Shown one piece after another: positions 2,876 to 61,805 of a stretch of 64,000 nt of DNA; positions within the stretch are counted from its first letter, which is position 1; the number at the start of each line of letters is the position of its first letter. The stretch is from Medicago truncatula (taxonomy: Eukaryota > Streptophyta > Magnoliopsida > Fabales > Fabaceae). The notes beneath the pieces are model-generated. The model was not told the DNA's origin, ran no database searches, and worked only from the letters and a program-made list of their open reading frames with translations. The DNA lies in contig NC_053047.1 in assembly GCF_003473485.1 (NCBI RefSeq), positions 33,280,972 through 33,344,971 of the forward strand, given 5' to 3'. A program made the position numbers and the translations under genes.

Positions 2876-5800
2876 TCAGCCGAATGTTGCGATGAGGAAG
2901 GACTTGTAGACGCTCATAAACTTAGCCACAAATGCTGAATACGTAGAGAAAATAAAATATAATCAGCAAGCAAATATTGTATAGACCCATGACTTATATA
3001 CCAATATATACATTCACCTTGTATAAAGCAATTGCTATAAACAAGTCTAGAGTCAAAAAATATAGAGGGTCTATATCAGAATTTCGTGCAAACCGCCATT
3101 TTTGTCACTGAATTTGCATTCTCTCTGCTATTTTGTCTATTGAAGTAAATGATAATAATTAGTCCCCAACATTTGTAATATTTGTCCAGTTAGTCCCTAA
3201 CATGTTAAATCTATCAAATTAGTTACTTATGTTTTGTCAGTAAATAATAGCATGGACTAATATGGCGAGTGTGACAAAATATTATGGACTACTTATTTTC
3301 ATTTACTTTGGAGATAAACTAGGAGAGAATGTGCAAATTAAGGACGGAATTGATGGTTTATTCTTTATTTGCAATGGTCAGCAAGCAACAAGCTCATAAG
3401 TTTATAACCATGCACCCAACTATTTCACACATTCAGATCAAAGTACCTTCAATGTGAAAAATTGCCTTCTGTCCAAGGCGCATCCTATGCTCCTGGTTAA
3501 ATGAGGGGAAAGAAGAATCAGCATCTCATTACTTTGAAAAATGAGGTAAAATTGGAAACACGAATCTTCAACTATTAACTTGTCTAATATCAAGCAAATG
3601 AAGAATAGATTTGTTGCATAAGCTATCAAATTAGGTAACACATATACAGAAGGCCCGAGTTCATGCTGAAGGCACTGTCATAAAGACTGCCGCTATTGAC
3701 ATGAAGTATCATATTTTGATAATGCACTTACATAATATGCTGCCCAATGGCAGACTTCATGCTTCAGTTCCGCATCAAGTTTCCTCAATAGCTCATAAAG
3801 AAGTCTCTGAAGCAAAAATTACAACGTCAGAGTCGAGTAAGAAAAAAAAATCAAAGAAAAGCCCGCACGTTGGGACATTGTGCAACAACACATTTACCTT
3901 CAAAATGATCTCGGGAGGAATGCAATTGGTCAGCAGCTCATACAGCTTTCCTCGAACTTGAAACAACCTAAAGCGTAATAGCATATTATGAGAGACGAAA
4001 CATGCATAGCACATAAATGAAATGAGAAATTAGTTGACAACACAAACAAGTAGGCAGTTATAAAAACTGACAAGGTTGAATGAAACGTTTTGTTAATCAT
4101 GAAGGATGAGAAAAGTGTTAACTGTATCAAAAACAAACCTTTTTGGGCTCTGTTCCTTCATTATGTCAGATGCAATTTCAGAAATATATTCCTCCCAGTC
4201 CATTGGGGGAATTGTTTGCTTGTCGGTGAAAGGATACCTACAAGCAACACATGAGCTGTCAGTAGTCTTCCTTAAAGAAAAGCTTTGAGAAGAGATGAAG
4301 ATCTGAGATTATGCATCCCAGATTAAATTGGAAGCTTGTGGAGCTTACTGTTGGACACGACAAGTCTCAAATGACAATATGGCCCTCCTTAAATTCCGAT
4401 TTGATTTCTCTGCTATGCGAGCAGCCAAACTAGAAGGAAGTTGCAGCCCTTCTTTCTTACCAATGAACTGTAAAACTTCAACAATCTGCCACATGGATTT
4501 CCAAATATTCAATAAAGATGAGCATTGAACTTATAGAATGCATATGCTAGACAAGATCAGTATATATACAATGACCATTAACATTCAACTTATAGAGTGG
4601 AAATGCAAATCAATGTTCATTAACAAAAGGAAAATGATAACTTGTGCCCTAAGGGCACATGTTAAGGTGCTAAAGATAGAAATTATGTGTTGAAAATAGT
4701 GCCAATTTATTTCTCGCAAGCTTAAAATTTAATGTTTCTCAATAAATACTTGCTCCTTGTAGCAACCTTAAAATATGCCCTAAGGGCACATGTTAACATG
4801 ACCCTTAACAAAAATATTTCAATAATTAAGCATATAGAATCCTTGGAAGAGAACTTGACCAAATCGCAAAAAGTAATATCACTGCCGTAACCCTTCAGTA
4901 TATCTAGAAAAGCATTTTATAATCGGAAACCCAACCTTCCTATCCAAGTTTCTTAATCTGCATTTTTTAGTATTCCTGGCAAAGATCTTCTGTCATAATC
5001 AACATTCTTAGGAGAAATGATCTTGGAAGTGCTAAAAGGTGCCGGTTGGTTTCAGCACATAAAGAATCTTACAAAGGATTGGGGGTCAATATTAAGCATG
5101 TTCTCTGGGAAGCCAATAAGTACGTAGAATGTCTTGTTAACTTGGGTGGCGAACAAACTACTCCTCTGGTAGTCTATGATCATTCACCGACTTCACGCGT
5201 TCAGTTCTTGAATTTTGATGTTTTGGCAATAGCTACTGCCCGTATGGTTTCCTTACAGTTTTCATGTTTTGAGCTTAGGCCCTCCCTTGTTTAAAAATAA
5301 AAATTATGAAGCATGGACTTATCCTACTATCATCTTGCAATAGTAGCAGCAAGCCACCTCACAGAACAACATTCATCTACTGGAAATAACGAATAAGCAA
5401 TAATAATAACATTGTAAACGATGAAACTACTTACTACTCACAATCACAACCCTACCAGAGTAAACAATTGCCTCGATGCTAAAAAACAAGGGGAAAAAAA
5501 ACATAGGAAACAGATTCCATTATTTCCTTGGACACTACAGAAAACTTAAAATTTATTTACCTGTTCTTCACTTGGTGCATTAATTCGCACATTAAGACAA
5601 CGGGAGCGGATTGCTTCTGTGACTCTTGAAGAGCTATTGCAACATAGAACTAATCTGCAATAAGCGCTGTATTTCTCCATTGTTCTGCGGAGAGAATGTT
5701 GAGCTTCTCTAGAGAGTTTGTCAACATCATTAAGCACTAGTACTGATACAAAATAAAATCTAAAATCAGCTTGACAAAGCTGAAGCAAACTATAAAATAG

Positions 5801-7663
5801 AAACAAAATAATATGAATTCTAGTAAATCTTGTAGTTATAATGCAAGCCAAGGTGGAGAGGTTTCTTATTTGATATTTCACATAGCGATAAAGAAACGGA
5901 GCCTTAAAGCATTACACAAGTAAAACAGACACTACCAGACCAAACAACATTATACACAATCAAAGAGATAATGTTTCACAAGTCATAAGAATTGAAAGAT
6001 AACATTCAATTGTGCAAAAAGCTCCACTATTTGTTGGCCATGAAGATTCCTTCTTTTATTATCTTAAAATAACACAAGTGTAGTTTAAGTTTAACAACAA
6101 AAACAGCCGGTTACCTTTAAATCCTTTCTTCCCTTTAGTATCAATGGGTCTATTCTTAGCCATTTCTTTGATTATTTCTTGAACAATGTATCTGTCCTGA
6201 AAGCCTGCATCACTTGGAGTCATTTCGATGTGGTTCGCACTTGATAATGTAGTCAGCTCTAAATCTATAGATCTACTTCCAGCCTGAAAACAGTGCTCAA
6301 GTACTTCAAAATAATAATAAATAGCCAAATAAGACACCAATGATTCAGTTCACTATACAGAGAAAATGTAGTGCACATAATATTGGAATTTCCAAGGATC
6401 AAGACAATGATATTACTAAGCAAAAAAATCTAAATAAATGTTTGTTTATTCTGAGTAGAAGGCATTCATTTTGAGGCATCTCCTATAATCAAAAGAGTTG
6501 TGGAAACCCAATTCCACTGTCAAAAGTATGATATGATAGAAACAGGTACCAAACAGTTCTGGAAATAGCTCACCACCAGAATATTGCAAGAACACACAGA
6601 ACAATGGTTTCAGGAATTAAAAAGGAAATAAGATGTAGAACAAAGACACAGGACATGGTTCCTACCAAGATTTGAGAGCTTGGTTCTCTCCCATCCAATA
6701 ACCACTCAATAACTTCTAGACAACCAATTATGACTTGCCTTTTTCCTATTTATTCTTACTAACAACACACAATTAATTAATAAAAAGTGTAACTACCACA
6801 AAACTCAAGGTCATTTTTGGCCTTCTAGGCCTCTGCCTCTCCTCCTACAGCAATGTTTAATGAATGTCTAACATAATACTATGTAAAAACAAATCAGTGG
6901 TAAGTTGATATCAATAAGGTTTCTCATTCTATGGAACTCTTCTTCTCTCTCAATATACCGGAACTGTTTAACAATTAGTGGTCCATACCATAATAATATT
7001 CAGGCAGACATTGCTCACTAAGTAAGGGTACACATAAAATCTCCAAAGCTATACCAGTGTAAGAGTGCTTCCAATAAATAAAAATTTGCAATAACACAGA
7101 AAGAAAAGGGGAGTGTGAAAAAGAATGAAGCTTACATCCACTTTCCATGCCCTATTTTCCACCTTCACCTGAAACATCAAAGATAATTATAAGAACACAT
7201 GAAAAGAAAAACAACAAAACATCTTACTAAAATTGCTTTGGTGCTCACACAAGGATTGCATTCTCAGGGAATATGCCAAAATAAAGATTCTTTCAAAATT
7301 CAGATTCACTTTCTTTAAAAAGTAATCAGTGAAACGAGTGACAAAAACAGGGTTTAAAAAAAATACCTTCTCAGCACCGGGTCCAAACATTTGGCGGAGA
7401 AGAGCCATGATGAGTGTTTTCTTGCCAGCGCCTGATGGGCCATAGAACAACAAATGAGGGCAATCATGTTCAGTAACCTGCAACAAGAAATCCAATCCAA
7501 ACAGAAATTACAACTTTAAAAATATAAAAGACAAATTTGATTGATTCAAATACAAAAGGAGAGTATGCACGAGAGTTACCAATTTCTTGAGATTTTGAGC
7601 GATGTCGCTGTGAACCATAGCATGGTCAAGAGTTTTGGGACGGTACTTGTCAACCCACAACAT
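2876..7663 (-). CDS. RFC3: Replication factor C subunit 3 (RFC3; human RFC3 / yeast Rfc5 type)
   Basis: Small ATPase subunit of the RFC clamp loader, which opens and loads PCNA onto primed DNA in the nucleus; small subunits are shared with the alternative loaders. Exons on the - strand: 7663-7580, 7477-7367, 7168-7136, 6283-6115, 5742-5561, 4485-4349, 4237-4139, 3967-3898, 3806-3732, 3492-3447, 2934-2876. All joins keep phase with GT-AG borders and give 354 aa, the length I recall for the Arabidopsis protein. The start [13 protein letters not shown] is the family start. Walker [10 protein letters not shown] is at residues 41-49, the Walker B region LVLNDVDKL near 134-142, and the SRC motif (arginine finger) at 179-181. 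The protein ends in FLIATFG. It looks intact. Introns hold a fold-back MITE (3088-3363) and a LINE relic (about 5040-5300). Confidence 0.96.
3088..3363. mobile_element. Fold-back MITE in the last RFC3 intron
   Basis: The left end, from GCAAACCGCCATTTTTGTC through TTTGCATTCTCTC to TAATTAGTCC, is mirrored by the right end, which reads in reverse complement GAATAAACCATCAATTCCGTCC through GTGCAAATTAAGG. The arms are about 80 bp and diverged, and no protein is encoded. It is a typical legume MITE of the 'rest of the frame as noncoding' type. It sits between RFC3 exons 10 and 11 without touching splice sites. Confidence 0.7.
5040..5300 (+). pseudogene. LINE-type RNase H domain relic in an RFC3 intron
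   Basis: The + strand reads [15 protein letters not shown] followed by [20 protein letters not shown]. This resembles the C-terminal part of the RNase H-like domain of plant non-LTR elements (pattern HTLREGNQCADFLAKLG...PLVVYD). Only this end is recognisable; the catalytic core is missing and the following reading frame drifts. It is antisense to RFC3, inside the intron between exons 5 and 6. Its origin is inferred from the motif only. Confidence 0.55.
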
Positions 7664-7984
7664 CTTTCTTCTCAATAACTTCTCCCGCTTCTTTCTTCAA
7701 TTACACACACACACACACTAATCAGACTCACTATGTTTAACAAAGGCCATTTCCTTGTATAAAGGGGTGTCAATGGGGCAGGGGTAGTAAAGAAACACTT
7801 AAGCAGACACAATAATAATATGAAAAAATGGAAATGATTGAATATAGCCACATTCGCTGTGTGTCGGTGCTACATAGAGATAGTAAGTATCTATGAAGAG
7901 CCAACACAGACACCAAACACACACTGAAATAGTGACGTGTCGACACTGTTTACTCGAGAAAATGATATAATTGAATATACTCCT

Positions 7985-8490
7985 ATAAAGCACGGATTCT
8001 GACACGACACGGACACGAACATGTAAACACTGCTAATTTAAAATATAGGACACCGACACCGATGCATACATATTTATAAAAAAAATCTAAATTGAGAATT
8101 AAAATATATATGTGTACATCGAATTTAAGCAATTTGGTTCATTACAAAAAAGCTCTTAAACAAAATACGACAATTTTTCACCTCCTTTCATTCCTCTACT
8201 CAACTGAAAAGCTAAAAATGATGCTATCAAATTTAATTTCCAAATCCCCATCATTAATAATCACTGCTTCAACACATCTTTAACCCCCATAAAAGTGTCT
8301 GAGAAGTGTTCAAAGAGTGTAAAAGTGTGTCGAAGCAAGAAAATAAAGTTTTTTTTGGGACACTTCTTTGACACGTGTACAAATGTCGGACACCAGGACA
8401 CACCTAATGCCATATGTGTCCGTTCTTAATAGATATAATCGCATGTGTCGGTGTCAGACATTGTCGGACACCGGGCATGCATGTTACTGT
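7985..8490. repeat. Interspersed repeat with GTGTCGGACACC words
   Basis: Both ends are rich in variants of GACACCGACAC / GTGTCGGTGTC, for instance CGACACGGACACGAACATG at the left and GTGTCGGTGTCAGACATTG at the right, with an AT-rich core. It interrupts the RFC3 upstream block relative to the CTF8 copy. A shorter relic of the same word set is at about 28525-28600. It is probably a non-autonomous DNA element common in legume genomes; no coding is seen. Confidence 0.55.
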
Positions 8491-8986
8491 CCTACTCCTC
8501 ATCCCCGTGGAATCAGATGAAATCAATCATACAATAATTCAAGAAATTATGATTTTTTTCCCACTAATAAATAAAGCTTATGACTAAATTTGAGTAGGAA
8601 AAATTATCAAAATGCTTAATTCTGCAAGAATTTCGCAAACAACTTCAATCTAAAATGAAATCAACGTTGCAAACATAGACATCTCAGCAAACAAAAAATT
8701 GAAGAAAAAACAAAGATAGTTGATCGAACGGAAAAATTGAAAACAAAGTATGTAGAATCTGTATCTTGGAAGTTTGATTTACCAAAGACGGAGATGGAGA
8801 GAGTGAGCAGTCGAGCTCGAGCGGAACAGAGGAGCGCCGGGGTGGAAGGCTGCAGATGCGACGGTCTAGGGTTCTCACTTCTTTTTTTTTGGTTACAAGG
8901 GTTCTCACTTCTTCATGCTCAACATAGATTTATTTGTTTTATTTTTTATTTATTAAAAAAATAATTAGTTAATAGGAAATTATGAA

Positions 8987-8998
8987 TTCCCGCCAAAA
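8987..8998 (-). promoter_or_regulatory. E2F-like site upstream of RFC3
   Basis: The sequence TTCCCGCCAAAA (reverse TTTTGGCGGGAA) fits the E2F consensus WTTSSCSS on both strands (TTTGGCGG and, with one flanking base, ATTCCCGC). Plant S-phase genes, including clamp-loader subunits, commonly carry such sites. It lies about 100 bp upstream of the putative leader. Confidence 0.6.
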
Positions 8999-9009
8999 TT
9001 AAGAATCTA

Positions 9010-9021
9010 TTGCGCCAATTT
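9010..9021 (-). promoter_or_regulatory. Second E2F-like site upstream of RFC3
   Basis: On the - strand the core is ATTGGCGC, which matches WTTSSCSS. It is 12 bp from the first site, a spacing like that of paired E2F sites in other S-phase promoters. The CTF8 copy keeps a GCGCC core at the equivalent place. Confidence 0.5.
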
Positions 9022-9049
9022 TTTAGTTTTTCTATGAAGGAATTTTTGC

Positions 9050-10584
9050 ATGGTCTATGATATTATCATATATTTAAGTGTAACTACTCAGACTAATAAT
9101 TCGAATTAGGTAAAATTATAATGAATGAAAAAGTTTATATGTGAGTGATTTAATATTTTTGAATAAGTTAAATTACCTGTATAAAAGAAGAATAGAACTT
9201 AAGATTTTTGGAGGAACACATTCTAAGTTCTCAAGCCAACATTATTGGATCAACCTAAGTGGGTTGTCTTACTAATTACTATCAATATATTTCTTCGAAT
9301 TGTAAATTATTTTTTGTAATGGAGAAATTATATTATGATTCCGTTCATTTTTCAAGAGTTTTTATTGGTTCGAAAGAGTTTAGCAGGAAAACACATATCC
9401 TCAGTATTGAGAAGTTGAAAATTGTGCGAGCCTTAGCATATTAAATGTTCTCACATATATCATTTCAGTTGTACTTATGTGACACAAATTTTTTTAACCT
9501 ACATAAATAGTAAAATAGTTTTACATATACATCTTGTTAGATTTTAATATGCTAAATTTAAATATATAATGATAATATTTTCTAAAATATCAAATTTTTT
9601 TTTTCTTTGCAAATAATTATATAGTCTCGTATTGTTTAAAATCATTTCTCATTTAATGTAATAGTGTTTGATCTCAATAGGACTCACTGTGATTTCAATT
9701 TTGACTGAAATATTAGGGTTTGAATAATCGTCTTTTCGGCAAGGGTTTTAGAAGTGCGGATAATCCTAAAAAGTTTTTTTGTACAAGTTATATGAAATTA
9801 TAGTGTTAGAGATTTTCTTTTCTACGTACTATAGTGTTAAAAATTGAATATTGATGGTGAGAAATATGTTATTTGCACATTACACCAATGGTAATGACAC
9901 ATAAAACTACTTTGGTAGATAGATCAAATGACAAATAACCTTTGAAACCAACACACAAGTGGAATGATCGAGGTTGGAAACCCGGTCACAACATTTGACC
10001 TTGCAATTTCGGCATTTTTCTCAATTAAGTTAGGACTTATGGACGATCGTCTCCACATTTATTTAGGGTTAAACTTGAAAGATGTTATTTATTTAGACTG
10101 ACAGTGTAAGTGATTGAATATTACATGGTGAGGAATAAACTTAATAGAAGGTGAGAACTTGTCACAACCACATCTTGAAGTCAGATAATTGCATGGTAAT
10201 TGAACTGATAGAAACACAGTTTTGTTATACACTTAAAAAAATTTCCAATCCCCAACACAATTTCCTTCTTCAATGCTTTTAGAAATTCTTTTTGAACAAG
10301 TGCTTTTAGAAATTCTGATAATAAATTACTAGCAATTTACACTAAAACAGATGTTAAAGATAATGACAAATCAAACACCTCTTAACAATATATTACAACA
10401 ACTTTTGCCATTAAATCATGTTCCACTCATAAATGGTTTCTAAGATTACAAATATGTATGAATGACACATAGAAGCTTCCTAAATTTTGCTTGCAGTGTA
10501 GAAAAGAGGGATATGTGTGTCTCCTTGAACTTCTCCAGATTTCTGGTCCAACATGAGTTTATTGAATGACAACGACGGTGAATG
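9050..10584. other. Intergenic between CTF8 and RFC3, with one arm of a diverged inverted repeat
   Basis: No gene is supported. Stretches at about 9620-9770 (around TATTAGGGTTTGAATAATCGTC) and 10050-10140 (around GATTGAATATTACATGGTGAGGAATAAAC) are the reverse complement, with divergence, of about 12540-12680 and 12424-12504 in CTF8 intron 1. The order is conserved, so one element of roughly 500 bp is present twice in opposite orientation. Confidence 0.55.
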
Positions 10585-12966
10585 TCACACAGCTTGATTT
10601 GAAGGAGCAGAGCCTGTCGTGATAGACTTTTGTTTTTCTTTAGATGTAACTGGTGGTTCTTGAGAAAACAAGAAAAAGAAGCACAACATTAGTAGTGGGC
10701 CTCCAATTTCACGAAACAATGGTAAAGATAGCACATGGCGACAGATGAAATGTATAAATAAATGCAAAAAATACATGGGACAAAATTATTGTTGTTCTTA
10801 ACCAGAAAGCGCATCAATTGCGTACGTAATACAGTTAACATAGGAAACAGCCACAAATACATGTAATAATAAACAGAGCCAAAAATATAAAGCGAGTTTC
10901 CTAACCAAAACTTTAGCATATTTTAGATGACATGATTGCCAAATTCCCTTTCAATTGTTCATAATAAACAGAGGACTAAAAATGAAAAATTATTCGATAT
11001 TTTTCAGAATTTGTATTCTCTACTGTCACAAAATCATATATCTCAATTGTTAGATAAAGATCAAATGACTCGTTATTTGGTATGTCTTTTGAAGTCTAGT
11101 TTGGTACGTAAGAATCTGCCTGTTGTTCAATCTTCATTCCTCAGGTCATGTTTTCTAGATTGTGTGACTGTGCTTTACATAACAGTAAGGTTTGTCTTCT
11201 AGTTAGCCCAAAACCAAAACTGCAGTAGGTTTCCACCTTTTTAGAATTAAAATGATTTCTTAATGCTAATGAAAACAATACTAGAATATTAACAGAACAT
11301 TAGATAGCAACAAGACTTTGGCAGGTTCTCATGCATATTCCAATTCTAGTAGCCATTTTCAAATTTCGGAAGTGTCGTATATTGCTTCTGAATTGTTATC
11401 AACAGAATGAAAAACAAATTCCAACAGGGGATATTGAGATTATAGGACAGTCAGATCTTACTAGAAATGATGGCCCTTGGTCTGGTCTTGAACAGAATTT
11501 TCTGTCGAATGATTCCAACAACCCGTAACTCCACCTGACCGCAACTGTCTCCATCTGGATGCTTGACTTTCTTGAGCACCAACAACGGCTTCTTCAAGGA
11601 GACCTTTGACCCTGTCAGTTCATGGTACCCAATAGTTAAAGTGTAGACTTCCTGAAAAACAAAACAATGGACACAATATATTAGTTTGTTTTCCTATTTA
11701 AGAAAAGGTGACAGTGGATTCCAATCTATGTAAAGACTATATCATAAACTCATACAAATTCGGATTCACTGCATTGAAAAAACACAGTTACACACATCAA
11801 TTAGTATTGTCTGTCATTTAGAGCTCGAATCTACTCATATTACACCTTTTCACCAAATCGTCTTTAAATAATTGTTATCATTGATTTGAGATCAAACAAC
11901 CAAGATAGATAACTACATCATGCAATTCTGTATGGAAGCTAAATCAGGACTCTTATAGTTTAGGACAAAGTTGATACTATATTTTTCTCATCATTAACAT
12001 CAATCCAAAACAACTTTTTCCATTTATACGAACATAGGACACTTGTGAAAATGTGTCCAATATTTCCTAGTGTTCTTTTTTGGTTACAAAAATAACTAAC
12101 CAAACAGGAAAAGAAAAGAAAAGAAAACAAGCCAACACAAGCAAACTACTCCCTAAGGTAGAAAGTTTCTGGCGTCCCTGCGAAGAAGATTGACAAGACC
12201 AGCAACTTTTGGACAGAAATGATATAAAATTAATTGTTGGTCTATCCGAATTAAACTAAGCAACTTTATCTTAAGAACCCTTTAAGCTTTTGGACAGATA
12301 ATTAAGAATATCATTATACATTTTTTACTCTAAAATATTATAATTATATTTTACAAAATAAAAGCTTTATTTCCATGTCAAAGTAACACCCACTTCCATG
12401 TCAAAGTAACACCCACATCAGTATGTTTATTCCTCGCTATCAAACATTCAATCTCTTACACTATCAATAGTCCATATAAAATCACAACATCTCAAGTTTA
12501 ACACTAAATAAATTTTATTCACTTTTAGTCTCTATTTCAAAAGCTTTGTAGGATTAAACCCCACTTGAAAAACCTTAACCAAATTGACGATTATTCAAAC
12601 CCTAATTTTTCAGTTAAAAATTGATATCACAATAAGTCTCCATTGAGGTCAAACACTTTGAATAAGAAATAATTGTAAACAATATGTGAATATATAACTA
12701 TTTGCAAAGAAAAAGATAATAACCAATAATCATGATAGAGATGAGATACATAATGAGATCATAATTTGAGTTGTTAATTGGTAAAATGATGGAAAAGAAT
12801 AGTGGCAAGTGGCAACCTGAGAAGAAGGACGGCAGAGAGTGCCAATTTGAAGGTTGGCAAGGGAATCCTGAAAACCAGGCTGTGGTTCAACAACTCCTTG
12901 CAGTTCAACAATGCCCCATTCCACACAGTTTCCTTCCTCACAATTGCACTGTACACGAATCTGCAT
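10585..12966 (-). CDS. CTF8: CTF8, chromosome transmission fidelity protein 8 (Ctf18-RFC subunit)
   Basis: Small subunit of the alternative clamp loader Ctf18-Dcc1-Ctf8-RFC, which acts on PCNA at forks and in sister-chromatid cohesion. Exons on the - strand: 12966-12817 (50 codons, MQIRVQCNCEEGNCVEWG...), 11651-11462 and 10658-10585, giving 137 aa. Exon 1 carries ELQGVVEPQPGF and IGTLCRPSSQ; exon 2 carries EVYTLTIGYHELTG, KKPLLVLKKV and the family hallmark ILFKTRPRAI. The donor A|GTAAGATC at the end of exon 2 joins in phase to PPVTSKEKQKSITTGSAPSNQAV. If that intron is retained, translation stops at 11451 after IISSKI (116 aa). An upstream in-frame ATG at 13008 would add 14 residues; the inner start matches the family. 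The gene is next to RFC3, a fellow clamp-loader subunit. Confidence 0.9.
12424..12690. repeat. Inverted partner of the 9.6-10.1 kb repeat, in CTF8 intron 1
   Basis: Contains TTTATTCCTCGCTATCAAAC and AATTGACGATTATTCAAACC, the reverse complements of blocks at 10050-10140 and 9620-9770. The two copies face each other about 2.3 kb apart and enclose CTF8 exons 2 and 3. The identity is too low for a recent insertion. Confidence 0.55.
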
Positions 12967-13562
12967 CTTTTTCCTCTCTTTTTCAACTTCCGATCGGTAT
13001 ACACACAAACTTATTTATAGTAACGTCTTTTGGTGCCAAAGATTCTTGCTTTTCCCGCGCTCTTATGTACTCCGTTTCCCTTTCCTAACCATGGAAATTA
13101 GGGTGTTCATATTCAAACCGATCCATTGAAAAATAGTGATACAATGGAATATTGATGTTTTTGAATCTTAAAGTGACACAGACTCAATCTATGAAGCACT
13201 GACAAAGACTCGAACAATGGACACGGCAATGACACATGGTCACTGGTAATAATTTGAAAAATTGAAAATGATTGAATATAACCACATGAGTGTTCTGAAG
13301 CATGGATAGCGGATTGTTGAAATTCCGCTATGCCACAATGCTAAGCTCCACTATAGTCACTATTTGAAAAATAATTTGTACTAAATAACTTATAGCAGAA
13401 CAATAACATATTGTCCTCCTAATTCTGCTACGTAATATCTGCTATTTAAGAACATTGAAATACGTTCCCCATTGGTGTATCGGGGCTACATAGGCAGTAA
13501 GTACTCCTCCACTCCCCATCGCCATGAAATCAATTATACAAAAATTCAAAAACAAAAAAATT

Positions 13563-13877
13563 GGGTAAACCACCATATTAGTTCTTGACTTTGTAGAGCA
13601 CTCTCAAATAGTTCCTTGAGATTATGGACTCTACTAAACTGTCAAGTTGATCCCTATATTTTAATCACTTACTATCGATTTGGTCTCTATATTTAACCAA
13701 TTACTTTCAATTTAGTCCCTAATTTTACTATCGGATTTGGGTCCACAACTCTCAAATGACTAATATGTGTAAAATTTGACAGAGTCGGATTTTTTTTTTT
13801 TTTTGATATATTAATAACATCAGGAACCTGTTTGAGAGCATCTTACAAAGTTAAAGACGAATTTGGTGGTTTACTCT
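13563..13877. mobile_element. MITE upstream of CTF8
   Basis: The left end GGGTAAACCACCATATTAG, followed by ACTTTGTAGAGCACTCTCAAA, is mirrored by the right end, whose reverse complement is GAGTAAACCACCAAATTCG with ACTTTGTAAGATGCTCTCAAA. The arms are about 60 bp and the core has the repeated phrase 'rest: TTAGTCCCTA / TTGGTCTCTA'. It interrupts the block shared with the RFC3 promoter, so it came after that duplication. Confidence 0.75.
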
Positions 13878-14226
13878 ATAAAGAATTGTTAAACAGGTTG
13901 ATTTGGACAGCATTTAGTGAACATTTTCGATCTAAATTCAAAGTTGCAAAAAAGACACATAGCATATACTACATAATTAAAGCAAATATAATTATAAATC
14001 TAAGCATCGAAAGCAAAAATTGAAAACGAAGTATGCAGAATCTGAATGTTGGTAGTTTGATTTATGCATACCTTTACCGATGACGAACGGAGCGGAAGCA
14101 GAGACGGAGAGAGGAGCGACGGAGTATGCGGTTGAGGATGCAGTGATGCGGTCTAGGGTTCTTCTCAGTTCTCAATAAAACCTTTTTTTTTTCGATTGTT
14201 AGAGGGAAAAGTTTGTGGGAAATGAG

Positions 14227-14238
14227 TTCCCGCCCAAA
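14227..14238 (-). promoter_or_regulatory. E2F-like site upstream of CTF8
   Basis: TTCCCGCCCAAA, a near match to the E2F consensus (TTCCCGC core without the leading A/T), at the position colinear with the better RFC3 site at 8987-8998. A second GCGCC core lies in TTTTTGCGCCATTTTT at 14265-14280, colinear with 9010-9021. Confidence 0.45.
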
Positions 14239-14280
14239 TTGAGAGTGAATGTGTGAATTATTGCTTTTTGCGCCATTTTT

Positions 14281-15505
14281 GCTTTGTTTGGTTTTACTTA
14301 ATTAAATTATGGATATGTTAACGTGTAAATGTCAAATATTTCAATTTTCGATTCATTCATTACATAAATTTTTTAAGAAAAAAAACTCTTTTGAAGGTCT
14401 TAAATAGTGTCTCAGAAACACTCGTTAACATTTTCATTAAATTATTCTTATTATTGTGTCATCATCACACCTCAAATGTAAGAATTAATTGTTGTTGGTT
14501 CGATCCCCGGCATGCCAAGTCCTAACCCGTGTAAATCATAAAAAAAATTATTATTATTGTGAGTTTAATTTGTAGGAAGGGATGGTGAAAAAAGTTTCAC
14601 ACTCAACACATCAGTGGCAATCATTTGTGTGATTTTTGAAGTCGTCATAACAAAACTCTAACGTTTATACTTTATATGTCTCATTTTAAATGTTGTTTAA
14701 CGATTGTGCGTAATTCTTAAGAAAATGATTAGGTAGATTGATTTCAATGTTAAAATTAATATTATTTAGTAAAATATTTTTATTAATCGTTGTTAATGAA
14801 GTAGTTAAATCGAGTGAAATTCAATAAGAAAAGTATATTAGTGGAAATAAAGAAAAGTTGCATTGGTATTTTAAAAAGACAATTATTTTTGACGCAACAA
14901 AGAAAATGCTAAATGCAAATGAAGTAATTCTTCAAAAAAAAAAACACTCAAATTTTATTACTTTTGTATTGAGCTTTTGACATTTAAAAACATCATATTT
15001 AATCATCACGTAATAAAATTTCTTCAAAAAATTCATCACATATCAAAATCTAATTTGTGGAGATTTTTTTTATAATGATCTAAACATGCTGTCTACAAGA
15101 AAATCATTTAAGAAATAAATGTTACTTTGACAACATCAAAATCATTCATATTTCAGTATAATTTGGATAATTAACGGATGAATATATGTGTTTGCACACT
15201 TGAAAATCGTAGGTTATGACATTTAAAATTATTGTCAATTGTGTCCGTTGATCAATAAATTGCAACATCTTGTTATATTCGTTGATTATCTAAGTTATTG
15301 TTAAAATTTGATATCAAATTTATGTATAGCTACTATAACATGTTATGTCACTCAACAAAATTAGGTTTGTCTTATACTTTGACACACTATTGTTTTTCTT
15401 CTGTCTTATTGTATGACTCACGAAATTAGTAATTGTTTTTTCTCTCTCATATTATATCAATCAATTACTAATTCTTAACGAGTAACCTTTGTCTTGGTGG
15501 AAATT
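14281..15505. other. AT-rich intergenic sequence
   Basis: No open frame, RNA gene or clear repeat boundary could be supported here. It ends at the 5-bp target duplication of the Copia fossil (15506-15510). Confidence 0.4.
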
Positions 15506-15510
15506 ATTAG

Positions 15511-15817
15511 TATTGAGAAGATGAAACTGATAAGAAAGAGAGAAGAAAAGGAGAGAAAAATATGAAAAATGAATGATTATTCTCATTAGCTTGGAAAGGA
15601 AGATACAACAGTCTTGTATAGACTTATCAAATGAAGCTATACTATAAGCTATTATGCACTGGTCTACACTAGATAGTAACTAACTATTTGACAGCTCATC
15701 AAAGTTTGTTACAGGTTCTAGACTAGTAACTTGTGCTGCAAGTAATTGAAGCTTTGCTTGTTTCTACTTCTTCATTTAGCAAGTTTGTTTCTATCTCTTT
15801 TGTATTATCTTTTAACA
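15511..15817 (-). repeat. 3' LTR of the Copia fossil
   Basis: 307 bp. On the + strand it runs from TATTGAGAAG to TTTTAACA, i.e. TGTTAAAAG...CTCAATA on the element's own strand. The partner LTR matches over the whole length with about ten substitutions and a 3-bp length difference. Confidence 0.95.
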
Positions 15818-17547
15818 GCCTCCCACAAGCTAGAGCATGGTATATGTTTATCATTCCCAACTTGCATATGAAAGAGTTGAACTTTGGAGGTGGAAGTGCT
15901 TTGGTTAAGAAATCTGTCAGTTGCTCATCGGTTGAAATAGGGAGAAGCTTGAGAACACATTTATGCAATTTCTCTCTGACCAAATGACAGTCAATCTCAA
16001 GATGTTTTGTTCTCTCATGAAATACTGGATTTGATGCCATGTGAATAGCACTTTGACTGTCACAATAAAGAACTGGCTGCTTGATACACTTGAGATTGAG
16101 ATCATTCAGCAAGTACAATATCCATTGAAGCTCACATGTTGCAACTGATAGAGCCCTATACTCAGCTTCTGAGGAGGACCTTGAAATGGTTGGCTGCTTC
16201 TTTGCCTTCCAAGATATGAGTGAAGAACCCAGAAAGAAACATAAATCAGTGGTTGATCTTCTTGTATCTACACAACCTGCCCAGTCTGCATCAACATAGC
16301 CTAAAATTTGTGCTTCTGATTTTCTTGGAAATATAAGACCAAGACCAGGAGCATTTTTGAGGTATCTTAGAATTCTACATGCAGCTTTATAATGAGCAGT
16401 GATAGGAGCATTAAGAAACTGGCTCAACTGTTGAGTAGCTAGTGAGATATCAAGTCTTGTAGTACTTAAGTAAAATAATCTTCCAATGAGCCTCCTGTAA
16501 CAAGACACATCTGCAAAAGGTTAGCTTGTGTCTTGATGCAATTTTACTGAAGTGTCTAAAGGTGTAGGAGCAGGCTTGGCACCTAAAAGACCTGAGGAAT
16601 CAAGCAAGTCCAAGCAGTATTTTCTTTGGAAAACATAGATTCCTTCTTTGGAATGAGCCACCTCTAATCCCAAAAAATACTTGAGTATCCCTAAATCTTT
16701 GATTTTGAATTGATTGTCAAGGATGTACTTGATTCTTTGAAACTCAATGACGGAAGTACCAGCTAATATAATATCATCCACATACACTAAAAGTGCTGTG
16801 AAATCATTGCCATGTTGAAGAGTAAACAAAGAGTAATCGACAGTGGATTGACAATATCCTTAAGCTAAAAGCAATGTGGTTAGCTTCTCATACCACTTTA
16901 TGCTAGCTTGTTTTAAACCATAAAGGCTTTTCTTCAGTTTGCAGACTTTACCAGATGAACTGGTTACACCTTCTGGAATTGTCATGTAAACAGTTTCTTG
17001 TAGATCTCCATGAAGAAAAGCATTATTGACATCTAGTTGGTGCATGTGCCAGTTATGAATAGATGCAATAGCAAGAAGAGTTCTCATTGTAGTCAATTTT
17101 GCCACTGGTGAGAATGTATCAAAAAAATCAAGACCCTCTACTTGATTGCAACCTTTAGCCACCAATCTTGCTTTGTATCTTTCAATAGAACCATCAACTT
17201 TGTACTTGATTCTATATACCCATTTGCAGCCAATAGGTTTTACATTGGGTGGTGTATCAATAGTGCACCAAGTGCCATTGTTAGCTAGTGCCTCTAATTC
17301 ATTATTCATTGCTCTTAACCAATGTTCAGACTGACATGCTTCTTTATAGGTTTTGGGTTCAGTACTTTGTGTGACAGAAGTAGAAAAAGCTTTATGTGTA
17401 GGTGATAAATGATGAAAAAATGAAAAGAGGATATAGGATAAGAAATACCTGAGTTGATAGATGATGGTAACTGAGTAGAGGAATTTCATACACAATCCTT
17501 CAAATAAGCTGGTTGAGACCTGATTCTAGTGGATTTGTGAAGAGTAG

Positions 17548-19831: not shown

Positions 19832-20141
19832 TATTGAGAAGATGAAACTGATAAGAAAGAGAGAAGAAAAGGAGAGAAAAATATGAAAAGTGAATGATTA
19901 TTCTCATTAGCTTGGAAAGGAAGATACAACAGTCTTATATAGACTTATCAAATGAAGCTATACTATAAGCTACTGTGCACTGGTCTACACTAGATAGTAA
20001 CTAACTATTTGACAGCTTATCAAAGTTTGCTACAAGTTCTAGACTAGTAACTTGTGCTGCAAGTAATTGAAGTCTTGCTTGTTTCTACTTCTTCTTCATT
20101 TAGCAAGTGTGTTTCTATCTCTTTTGTATTATCTTTTAACA
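19832..20141 (-). repeat. 5' LTR of the Copia fossil
   Basis: 310 bp, partner of 15511-15817. The primer-binding TGGTATCA lies directly inside it (19824-19831, - strand), and the target duplication ATTAG lies outside at 20142-20146. Confidence 0.95.
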
Positions 20142-41570: not shown

Positions 41571-42176
41571 TAATTATAACTTAAAAAAAGAGGGCAACAA
41601 ATTTCAAGACAATTTGAATAAGACAATTTCTAGTCACATAAAAAAAATACTGATTACACCTCGATAAGATCAATATACCCTTAAAATAAAATAAGTTTTC
41701 AAGTGTATTTAAAGCCATGCAGCGCAAAAATTTACATATTCTTTTATCTAAACTGGGTTAATGTAATTGATAAGTGACTTTACCTTAAAATAGGGACCTA
41801 AAGTGAAGATGAAAAACTTTTGGGGACTAAAAATTGAAGATTTTTTTAGAAAAACTAAAATAAAAAAGTGACATATTTATAGGGACAAAAAACATATTTA
41901 ACCCTATATAAAATATTATAACAATATCTCTCATAATTTTTTTTTCTTTTTAACAAAATATGAATTTAAAATAAATTTTTAAGTGATAAATGCTTAAAAT
42001 TCACATTTAATTCATCTTTTTACAAAAGTTAAACTTTTACATTTTATAGTATTCTAAACATTTTTGAAAGATAAAATATTCTATTCCCCTAAAAAAAAAA
42101 AAAATATTCTATAATTCCTAAAAAAGAAAAAATAATTCTAACGTAAAAAAAATTCAAAATTTCAAAGAATGCAATC
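41571..42176. other. AT-rich spacer with a MITE end
   Basis: Nothing coding. At about 41780-41910 lies one end of a MITE-like sequence (TTTATAGGGACAAAAAACATATTTAACCC) related to the elements at 28233 and 36304. Confidence 0.4.
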
Positions 42177-44950
42177 TTCTTATATATTAAAGTTAACAAG
42201 TAAGCCCTAATTTTAACCTAAATCCTATTGCATAATTTTACTGTTTTAACCCTAATGTTTACACCTAATCTCCTATTTTCATGAACAATCTTCTTATATA
42301 TTAAAGTTAACAAGTAAGCCCTAATTTTAACCTAAACCCTATTGCATAATTTTACTGTTTGAACCCTAATGTTCACACCTAATCTCCTATTTTCATGAAC
42401 AATCCTAATGCTCTCTCCTAATCTTCTTATATATTAAAGTTAACAAGTAAGCCCTAATTTTAACTTAAACCTTATTGCATAATTTTACTGTTTTAACCCT
42501 AATGTTCACACCTAATCTACTATTTTCATGAACAATATTCTTATATATTAAAGTTAACAAGTAAGCCCTAATTTTAACTTAAACCTTATTGCATAATTTT
42601 ACTGTTTGAACCCTAATGTTCACACCTAATCTCCTATTTTCATGAACAATCCTAATGCTCTCTCCTAATCTTCTTATATATTAAAGTTAACAAGTAAGCC
42701 CTAATTTTAACTTAAACCTTATTGCATAATTTTACTGTTTTAACCCTAATGTTCACACCTAATCTACTATTTTCATGAACAATATTCTTATATATTAAAG
42801 TTAACAAGTAAGCCCTAATTTTAACTTAAACCTTATTGCATAATTTTACTGTTTTAACCCTAATGTTCACACCTAATCTACTATTTTCATGAACAATATT
42901 CTTATATATTAAAGTTAACATGTAAGCCCTAATTTAAACCTAAACCCTATTGTTTAATTTTACTGTTTTAACCCTAATGTTCACACCTAATCTCCTATTT
43001 TCATGAACAATCCTAATGCTCTCTCCTAATCTTCTTATATATTAAAGTTAACAAGTAAGCCCTAATTTTAACTTAAACCCTATTGCATAATTTTACTGTT
43101 TTAACCCTAATGTTCACACCTAATCTCCTATTTTCATGAACGATCCTAATGCTCTCTCCTAACCTCTTATATATTAAAGTTAACAAGTAAGCCCTAATTT
43201 TAACCTAAATCCTATTGCATAATTTTACTGTTTTAACCCTAATGTTCACACCTAATCTTCTATTTTCATGAACAATCTTCTTATATATTAAAGTTAACAT
43301 GTAAGCCCTAATTTTAACCTAAACCCTATTGCATAATTTTACTGTTTTAATCCTAATGTTCACACCTAATCTCCTATTTTCATGAACAATCCTATTGCTC
43401 TCTCCTAATCTTCTTATATATTAAAGTTAACAAGTAAGCCCTAATTTTAACCTAAACCCTATTGCATAATTTTATTGTTTTAACCCTAATGTTCACACCT
43501 AATCTCCTATTTTCATGAACAATCCTATTGCTCTCACCTAATCTTCTTATATATTAAAGGTAACCCGTAAGCCCTAATTTTAACTTAAACCCTATTGCAT
43601 AATTTTACTGTTTTAACCCTAATGTTCACACCTAATCTCCTATTTTCATGAACAATCCTAGCTCTCTCCTAATCTTCTTATATATTAAAGTTAACAAGTA
43701 AGCCCTAATTTTAACATAAACCCTATTGCATAATTTTACTGTTTTAACCCTAATGTTCACACCTAATCTCCTATTTTCATGAACAATCCTAATGCTCTCT
43801 CCTAATCTTCTTATATATTAAAGTTAACAAGTAAGCCCTAATTTTAACTTAAACCTTATTGCATAATTTTACTGTTTTAACCCTAATGTTCACACCTAAT
43901 CTACTATTTTCATGAACAATATTCTTATATATTAAAGTTAACATGTAAGCCCTAATTTAAACCTAAACCCTATTGCTTAATTTTACTGTTTTAACCCTAA
44001 TGTTCACACCTAATCTCCTATTTTCATGAACAATCCTAATGCTCTCTCCTAATCTTCTTATATATTAAAGTTAACAAGTAAGCCCTAATTTTAACCTAAA
44101 CCCTATTGCATAATTTTACTGTTTTAACCCTAATGTTCACACCTAATCTCCTATTTTCATGAACAATCCTAATGCTCTCTCCTAACCTCTTATATATTAA
44201 AGTTAACAAGTAAGCCCTAATTTTAACCTAAATCCTATTGCATAATTTTACTGTTTTAACCCTAATGTTCACACCTAATCTCCTATTTTCATGAACAATC
44301 TTCTTATATATTAAAGTTAACATGTAAACCCTAATTTTAACCTAAACCCTATTGCATAATTTTACTGTTTTAACCCTAATGTTCACACCTAATCTCCTAT
44401 TTTCATGAACAATCCTAATGCTCTCTCCTAATCTTCTTATATATTAAAGTTAACAAGTAAGCCCTAATTTTAACCTAAACCCTATTGCATAATTTTACTG
44501 TTTTAACCCTAATGTTCACACCTAATCTCCTATTTTCATGAACAATCCTATTGCTCTCACCTAATCTTCTTATATATTAAAGGTAACCCGTAAGCCCTAA
44601 TTTTAACCTAAATCCTATTGCATAATTTTACCGTTTTAACCCTAATGCTCACACCTAATCTTATATTTTCATGAACAACCCTAATGCTCACAGCTAATCT
44701 CATATTTTCATGAGCCCTAATTTTAACCTAAACTCTGTTGCATAATTTTACCGTTTTAACCCTAATGCTCACACCTAATCTTATATTTTCATGAACAACC
44801 CTAATGCTCACACCTAATCTCATATTTTCATGAGCCCTAATTTTAACCTAAACCCTGTTGCATAATTTTACCGTTTTAACCCTAATGCTCACACCTAATC
44901 TTCTATTTTCATGAACAACGCTAATGCTCAACCTAATCTCCTATTTTCAT
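42177..44950. repeat. Satellite array, 114/133-bp units with 1,023-bp higher-order repeat
   Basis: About 20 units start with TTCTTATATATTAAAGTTAAC and continue with AAGCCCTAATTTTAACCTAAA, TGCATAATTTTACTG and TTCACACCTAATCTCC. Units are about 113-114 or 132-133 bp; the long form has an extra block CCTAATGCTCTCTCCTAAT. Variants repeat at a distance of exactly 1,023 bp: the 'AACATGTAAGCCCTAATTTAAACC' type at 42919 and 43942, the CTAACCTCTTATA form at 43160 and 44183, and GGTAACCCGTAAGCC at 43560 and 44583. The last 350 bp (44600-44950) are shorter, decayed units. The units contain ACCCTAA-type words like degenerate telomere repeats. No coding. Confidence 0.95.
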
Positions 44951-59243: not shown

Positions 59244-59773
59244 GATTTTGTTACCACTCTTTCCCCGATTACCTCTACCTTCACCATTCCCTCTTGAAAC
59301 ACTTAGGCCTTCACTGTTTTCATCAATTCTCAAGTCCTTGAACTCGGTCAACTCCTTGGTTCTCAAAGTCGCTTGAACTTCTTCCAAGGTAACAGTGCCT
59401 TCTTTACCATAAAGCATGATATCTTTGAAAGATTCAAAAGTCTCGGTAGGGTACACAACAAGAGTATAAATTTATCTTCATCCTCAAGATGCACCTCAAT
59501 ATTCTCCAAGTCATCAAAGATTTTGTTGAACTCCGTAAGTTGCTCCATGATGGCCTTTGACTCCACCATCTTGAATGAGTAGAGTTGTTGCTTTAGGAAT
59601 TGCCGATGAGCCTAAGACTTTGTCATATACAAAGACTATAACTTTAACTACATCGATGCCGCGTTTGGTTCTTTCGCTACATCTCTCAAAACTTTATCCC
59701 CGAGGCACAAGACAATGGCACTCTTGGCCTTGTCTACCATCTCGATCTTCTCCGCTCGTGACATGGTGACCGA

Positions 59774-61805
59774 TGTAACACCCCGTTACCCAAATGCAAT
59801 AAAATAGCATAAATACATCAGAGTAATTTCACAACGGCATGTTACACATCATTTTAAAATTCTTAAATAGAAAATAAAACTATTTAAAACAAATCAACTT
59901 ATTATAACTGAAAACATAGCAGCGGAATAGTTTTCAGAATCCATCTCATCATGAATATCCAACAAAAGTCTATGGCATTAAAGGCCTTAACATAATCCCA
60001 TATCATAGTTCAAAGACAATAAAAAAAAGGCTCCACATCACAAGTTCCAAAATTTGATACATGGAAAGGAAAAGCAACAACAACGAAGATAATCAATATT
60101 CCCATCCCACGTATCAGAGCCCTAGACACGACAATGAGCCACCACCTACTACTCAGGATCACCTGCAAGTTACCCATAGGAAGGGCAACATTTTCAAGCA
60201 GAAGGGGTGAGATTCACAACAATAAATATAGATATTAAAATCATCAATTGAATCTAACACCCTAATCAACAACATATTATCTTGTAACATATAAATGTAT
60301 GAGTCACAAGTAACAACAACATCAACATCACACCATAACCACAATGAGAATAATATATAACACATATTCAACACCAACATCATCCATCAGATAATAACTG
60401 AAATCAACAACCAAGACTCATGCTAATGACATGACCACTGCTAAGACACCATCTTAGACTTCTTATATGAAATGCAATTATGCATGTGGTACCAATCAGG
60501 ACCGAGGCCCTCACCGCTTTTGAATGGTTAAAGCATTCATCAGGACCGAAGCCCTCACCGCTGTTGAGCAACTAGTACTCCAGGACCGAAGCCCTCACCG
60601 CTGTTTTATGCATATGCAATGGACCTACTTGTGTATATCTACATACAACTGACCATGCAATGCAACTCCATATGACTCCACTTAAACCACATGTATGACT
60701 CAATAATTAGCATACATTCAACCATCATCAGTATTCAATAACGCAGCACTCCAATCAACCAAAACAATGCATAATTATATATATCCATGCTCAAAACAAC
60801 AACATCAAACCATTATTATTCAAGCAAGCAATTTCAACAATCAGGGACTGAGCAGCTCGCCTCGCGAGCACATCTGCTCGCCACGGCGAGTTCACAAAAC
60901 ACTAGCTCGCCATGGCGAGTTCAAGGCGAACTCGAGGCGAGTGAAAATTAGGTGCTCTCGGGAAAAATGATATTTTCTCACTCAAACTCCAATTCTAAGC
61001 TCCCTATTCATCTTTTTAACCTAAAACTTCCTCCATTCATCTGTATTATCATCTAGGTACCTTAAACCATCCCCAAAACATCTTATAACAACTTTTCAAA
61101 AATCAAGTTTTATCTGGGCTTACTCGCCATGGTGAGTTGGACTGCTCGCGAGGCGAGTGGTGATGTTGTTCACTCGCGAGGCGAGACATGAATGCTCGCG
61201 AGGCGAGCGATGAACATCAGTACGGGCAGAAAACTGGTTTTTCCCCAAAATCGCACTTCTCTTCCATTCACTCCCCAAATCAGTTTACAGATGCAAATTA
61301 ACTTTCTGTGTGCAACTAGAACCTATTTCTAACATCAAATTCAGGTTTACAACTTCAAAAACTACAATTTCATCATAGACCCAAATTCCCCAATTTTTAC
61401 CAAAACCTGTTAAACTCAAAATCAGACTTTAAATTCTACACTATTGAAGTAAACCCCACCCTTACCTTAGAAATTGAAGAAGAAATGCACAGCAATGATC
61501 AACTCTTGGTTCTCTCCTCTTGTTCCTGGTTTTCTCTCCCTTGGCTTGGTTTCACGTAAACTGCTTCTGACATCTATTTCCCAACTTCCCTCTAACTTAA
61601 CTCCCTAATATTTCCACTTAACTCCCCATAAATTCTATTAATTACTATTATTTCCCAAACTCCAAAATAATTACCATTTCATTCTTATTTTAATTATTAT
61701 TAAATAAACCATATACTAAAATAATACACCACATAAAACATCCAAAAATCACATATATATATAAATACATGCATATACTCCACATAAAACACCAACATCA
61801 TATAT

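Follow-up and report, generated by a model that had tools for sequence, protein, structure and literature searches.

We analyzed a 64-kb window within the 430-Mb genome of Medicago truncatula (C6:33280972-33344971; coordinates below are those of the window unless a contig such as C6 is named). On its minus strand, RFC3 (hereafter RFC3a) and CTF8, which encode subunits of one DNA-replication machine, are adjacent genes, and we found that their upstream regions contain diverged copies of a single module, colinear and in direct orientation. The RFC3-side copy, P_a, extends over 7786..9040 (minus strand; low end approximate) and the CTF8-side copy, P_b, over 13189..14300 (minus strand). Both carry the same E2F-type and telobox-type motifs, together with a top-scoring splice donor. 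Judged from its sequence, the module looks like an S-phase promoter of the E2F type, with a first exon that is not translated and then a long intron. An old local duplication of this promoter-leader is the most likely explanation, and RFC3a and CTF8 are possibly under shared E2F control.

Two diverged copies of a predicted promoter-leader module

The initial annotation had described the two 5' regions as diverged copies that share five colinear blocks and differ by private insertions. All five blocks are present in both upstream regions, and blastn yields three strong colinear matches between these regions: 8723-8781 with 14006-14064 (88% identity over 59 bp), 7813-7853 with 13247-13287 (90% over 41 bp) and 8517-8545 with 13524-13552 (90% over 29 bp). 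Their chained score reaches 284.8 bits, whereas 284 random window pairs average 45.6. Two of these random pairs outscore P_a/P_b, both of them located in strong repeats of the window's self-comparison; the fourth-highest random pair (184.8) is the P_a/P_b module itself, drawn by chance. Each copy has indeed acquired its own insertions, one in P_a (7892..8490) and two in P_b (13306-13458 and 13563..13877), and once these are removed the alignment runs on between the blocks.

The limits of the duplicated unit were evaluated by comparing the alignment score of each region with that of shuffled sequence (300 or 500 shuffles) and counting the shuffles that reach the real score. None of 300 shuffles does so for the intron (8540-8722 versus 13878-14005), for the promoter region (8875-9040 versus 14165-14300) or for the flank of a shared element described below, which includes the 29-bp block. 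Similarity is not significant in the ATG-proximal sequences (7664-7757 versus 12967-13187, with 51/500 shuffles reaching the score), where a test using 7678-7795 was borderline (15/300), nor is it significant beyond 9040/14300, past the E2F sites (178/300 and 279/300 shuffles at two lengths). Based on these counts we rejected a homology that would reach the ATGs or continue past 9040/14300. The alignment between the two 5' regions is thus significant and colinear, but confined to about 7786-9040 and 13189-14300, which we take as the extent of the duplicated unit.

Both copies present the same succession of predicted signals. The E2F-type site TTCCCGCC is found at 8987..8994 in P_a and at 14227..14234 in P_b (plus strand in each case), close to the predicted transcription start, and the telobox-type leader start ACCCTAGACCG at 8862..8872 in P_a and 14149..14159 in P_b (minus strand). 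Each of the two sequences occurs exactly twice in the 64-kb window, once per copy. The predicted 5' leader exons that follow on the minus strand, at 8783..8872 in P_a and 14072..14159 in P_b, contain no ATG and are GC-rich, with 63% GC (measured over 8782-8871) and 58% GC (measured over 14071-14159), respectively. These values rank in the top 0.06% and the top 0.34% of 6391 windows of 90 bp. At the end of the leader, the top donor of P_a is at 8782 (best of 16 GT sites, score 5.6), 1 bp away from the 59-bp block, and that of P_b is at 14071 (best of 14 GT sites, score 10.1), 7 bp away from it. The P_b score falls inside the range of 6.3-10.7 obtained for 20 reference coding donors, all taken from the two RFC3 genes and used themselves to build the scoring matrix. 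The 59-bp block would then correspond in each copy to the start of an intron in the 5' untranslated region (UTR), predicted on the minus strand at 8723..8781 and 14006..14064.

In excerpts from PMC1794593, the E2F motifs nTTCCCGC and ssCGCCnA are described as enriched among DNA-replication genes, and the telo-box, AAACCCTA, is associated with ribosome genes. Excerpts from PMC2806904 indicate that Ctf18 joins Rfc2-5, Dcc1 and Ctf8 in yeast and humans, and that CTF18 is raised in E2Fa-DPa plants of Arabidopsis. The module resembles plant E2F-regulated S-phase promoters in that an E2F-type TTCCCGCC stands near a telobox-type leader start at replication genes; here, however, one promoter-leader, known from sequence, is shared by descent between unrelated neighbors. 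Among the matches listed in our literature search, no title or abstract opening describes the RFC3-CTF8 locus.

Transposable elements and dispersed relatives of the module

Part of the shared sequence is of mobile origin. The GATTGAATATA block, like the GCTACATAG end, is part of a dispersed element that resembles a miniature inverted-repeat transposable element (MITE) and whose ends, read by eye, resemble CTATGAAGCAC...GTGCTACATAG. In P_a, this MITE-like element is found at 7790..7877 (plus strand), with a degenerate and uncertain left end. In P_b it covers 13188..13493 (plus strand; outer ends set by eye) and is split at 13306-13458 by another dispersed repeat, gained after the duplication. 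When the truncated P_a element was used to look for the polarity of the duplication, its score was reached by 229/500 shuffles in comparison with the CTF8-side copy, by 4/500 with another genomic copy and by 58/500 with a third. Beside the element, both copies show the same flank, AGTAAGTA...CTCC...CCCC...ATGAAATCAAT, so that the element probably predates the duplication. The private insertion of P_a (7892..8490, plus strand) resembles the MITE-like family, both its boundaries and this likeness being judged by eye, and the P_b insertion at 13563..13877 (plus strand; outer ends by eye) has inverted ends that are 77% alike over 53 aligned bases. The dispersed parts of the module region consist of the MITE-like element and one insertion.

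Apart from P_a and P_b, genome-wide DNA searches with the non-dispersed parts of the module retrieved just two fragments, each about 100 bp long. For the P_a promoter region (8835-9045) and the sequences flanking the element (8440-8720 and 13455-13570), the query itself was the sole match, in searches that also missed the diverged partner of each query. The beginning of the intron, taken together with the donor (13980-14082), was found in four genomic places: once in P_a, once in P_b and twice in an inverted pair at C6:12.28 Mb. The arms of this pair (C6:12275000-12284999, approximately 5082-5574 and 6880-7363 within it) measure about 500 bp, are 80% alike and lie 1.3 kb apart; each combines an RPS6-like leader exon, from a gene on C7 labeled by eye, with 100 bp of CTF8-type intron start including the donor. 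This mosaic pair is probably made of transposon-captured fragments. The joining of an RPS6-like leader to a CTF8-type leader-intron start is similar to the gene-fragment capture by Pack-MULEs and Helitrons, whereas around the RFC3a and CTF8 copies no such element was recognized, no dedicated search having been made.

RFC3a, CTF8 and their relatives in the genome

The gene at 2876..7663 (minus strand) is presumably RFC3, an assignment based on a plant RFC3 probe protein. As placed with this probe, the ATG is at 7663, the coding segments run from 7663 to 2879 and the stop codon is at 2876; the 11 coding segments compared provide 348 codons without a stop. The product, a clamp-loader small subunit, contains RFC-type AAA+ and lid domains, and the exons score above the Pfam cut-offs for PF13177 (35.9 bits, cut-off 27), PF21960 (53.3, cut-off 27) and PF03215 (28.2, cut-off 23.8). 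CTF8 starts with an ATG at 12966; its exons 1 and 2 are at 12966-12811 and 11654-11463 (minus strand), and a candidate last exon, corresponding to an open reading frame (ORF) read by eye only, ends on the same strand at about 10585. The CTF8 product has a Ctf8 domain (PF09696, 39.1 bits, cut-off 22). As described in the initial annotation, RFC3 and CTF8 are neighbors on one strand, here the minus strand. Exons 1 and 2 are the sole matches to CTF8 genome-wide, and no CTF8 relative was found in viral contigs. We also observed an inverted duplication, 73-79% alike, between the CTF8 3' flank (9594-9866 and 10057-10143) and CTF8 intron 1 (12720-12428 and 12513-12422); its 9590-9790 part has no third genomic match at E <= 0.001.

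A second intact RFC3 gene, RFC3b, begins at C6:10067358 (10.067 Mb). Leaving out exon-edge residues, and using the better-agreeing codon among alternative readings, we found 338/348 residues identical between RFC3a and RFC3b, with a synonymous divergence (Ks) of 0.456 and a non-synonymous divergence (Ka) of 0.014. Both genes appear to be kept by selection. Their homology ends 10 bp before the ATG, and on the 3' side it passes the stop codon at 2876 and reaches 2618. The RFC3b promoter is compact, E2F-bearing and unrelated to P_a; TTTTCCCGCC lies some 40 bp upstream of its ATG. The same compact promoter precedes an exon-1 fragment at C2:19.375 Mb, in which, unlike RFC3b, a TATATA match is also present; we rejected this fragment as an outgroup for polarity, since it shares both promoter and intron start with RFC3b. 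Upstream of RFC3a, similarity to an RFC3b-type compact promoter is not significant (76/300 and 62/300 shuffles, or 132/300 and 206/300 without the last 20 bp), and no WTTSSCSS match is found in the 150 bp before the ATG. As RFC3a is thus devoid of a recognizable compact E2F promoter, P_a is the best promoter candidate for this gene.

A broken RFC3 copy containing stops is present at C2:23.695 Mb (about 7165-10000 of locus L050). Over the 1364 columns retained for good local alignment, the p-distance is 0.127 between this copy and RFC3a, 0.159 between RFC3a and RFC3b, and 0.189 between RFC3b and the broken copy, which places the broken copy nearer to RFC3a than RFC3b. A piece of the module intron, with 72% identity over 89 bp to P_a and 71% over 85 bp to P_b, stands in the broken copy directly before sequence matching 6173-6094, that is, sequence inside and after the RFC3a coding segment 6283-6116. 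Judging by this fusion, the module had probably become linked to RFC3 before the broken copy arose. The presence of RFC3b under an unrelated promoter shows that, in either the RFC3a or the RFC3b lineage, the coding part came to be combined with a different promoter.

Elsewhere in the window, the self-comparison reveals a large tandem array at 42172-44950. A direct repeat (15511-15817 / 19832-20141) is 96% identical over 310 bp, and its first copy overlaps an ORF at 15723-16520 (minus strand) that resembles a Copia-type retrotransposon polyprotein, a label given by eye. A match to the MIR2617 microRNA precursor is located at 59771-59852 (minus strand, 54.8 bits).

Proposed origin of the duplication and control of the two genes

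We propose that one module, comprising an E2F-type site, a leader with a telobox-type start, a GC-rich untranslated exon and a donor, was duplicated locally in direct orientation. The duplication would have taken in the first part of a 5' UTR intron that already carried the MITE-like element, and would have placed one copy upstream of CTF8 and the other upstream of RFC3a, private insertions coming later. Transcripts may begin at the telobox leader and lose the element-bearing intron by splicing, which would join the leader to the coding exons of RFC3a and, perhaps as an alternative, to those of CTF8; E2F would thereby drive both subunits at S phase. We assign to this scenario as a whole, from an old local duplication to S-phase control of both subunits, a probability of about 0.5. 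The co-regulation by promoter copying put forward in the initial annotation is retained in part: the motifs, the ATG-free leader and the donor present in both copies give good support to the duplication of a promoter with its leader, and that it drives both genes is something we infer from these signals as plausible. The alternative named there, an old duplication in which another coding part took the place of the first, may also apply.

Several observations weigh against this scenario. The leader exon itself, from telobox to donor, aligns no better than chance (135/300 shuffles reach the score), and the identical motif runs were chosen after the alignment had been viewed. With its score of 5.6, the P_a donor is rather weak and ranks below all 20 reference donors (6.3-10.7). 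The searches with flank and promoter sequences missed a known partner, so that what they exclude is close or dispersed copies, and diverged ones may have escaped them. RFC3a has a partial E2F-like match, GCGGG, at -25. Lastly, CTF8 has E2F- and TATA-like sites of its own 50-90 bp before its ATG: these close promoter candidates (13013..13062, minus strand) comprise an E2F-type GCGGGAAA at -92 and a TATAAA at -53 from the ATG, and their presence means that P_b may be redundant.

The duplication may therefore be real with a single copy functional, in which case CTF8 would most likely use its compact promoter, RFC3a would depend on P_a and P_b would be a relic. The GCGGGAAA and TATAAA sites of CTF8 and the lack of a WTTSSCSS match before RFC3a agree with this possibility, which we nevertheless hold to be doubtful, as P_b retains both its E2F-type and its telobox-type site, along with a donor that scores high (10.1), despite wide divergence. 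We regard as unlikely a history in which the module was originally that of RFC3, and CTF8, with its compact promoter, was inserted upstream of RFC3a through a break repair that copied the flanks. A staggered-break duplication would account for P_a (7786-9040) and P_b (13189-14300) flanking CTF8; CTF8 has no match elsewhere in the genome, and the second, inverted duplication (9594-10143 with 12720-12422) attests to local rearrangement. Break-repair local duplications in plants similarly show direct copies flanking a segment with an inverted duplication nearby, but in the present case what was duplicated is a promoter-leader module, and the copies are both old and diverged. Moreover, a tandem duplication gives the same layout, and RFC3b and the RFC3 fragment stand under a different promoter, so that RFC3 genes in this genome do not generally carry the module.

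Equally unlikely in our view is that CTF8 and its promoter were duplicated in tandem, that the coding part of the new copy then disappeared and that RFC3a came to stand behind an orphan promoter. The homology of RFC3a and RFC3b, which stops 10 bp before the ATG yet extends past the stop codon to 2618, is in line with such an event; however, no CTF8 remnant is seen near RFC3a, the genome search returns only CTF8's own two exons, and either RFC3 promoter may be the ancestral one. Finally, the similarity might be merely that of a common transposon inserted twice, an objection foreseen in the initial annotation. The GATTGAATATA block and GCTACATAG do belong to a dispersed element, but the sharing extends to its flank, to the intron and to the promoter region, and no dispersed copies of these were found in our searches, which may miss diverged ones. 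A transposon alone is thus insufficient, and we consider this explanation highly improbable: a common-transposon origin is accepted for one block and rejected for the module.

Under the local duplication of a promoter-leader module, and provided that both copies work, two unrelated subunits would have come under shared control via one copied promoter-leader. We may also imagine, with little confidence, that RFC3a took the promoter of CTF8, its CTF18-RFC partner, and is thereby the RFC3 produced for this alternative clamp loader and synchronously with it, RFC3b with its compact promoter serving the canonical loader; if true, labor between the RFC3 genes would have been divided through promoter copying and not through protein change. 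RFC3b, a near-identical protein under an unrelated promoter, offers a built-in comparison, which would make it testable whether a promoter alone divides RFC3 paralogs between clamp loaders.

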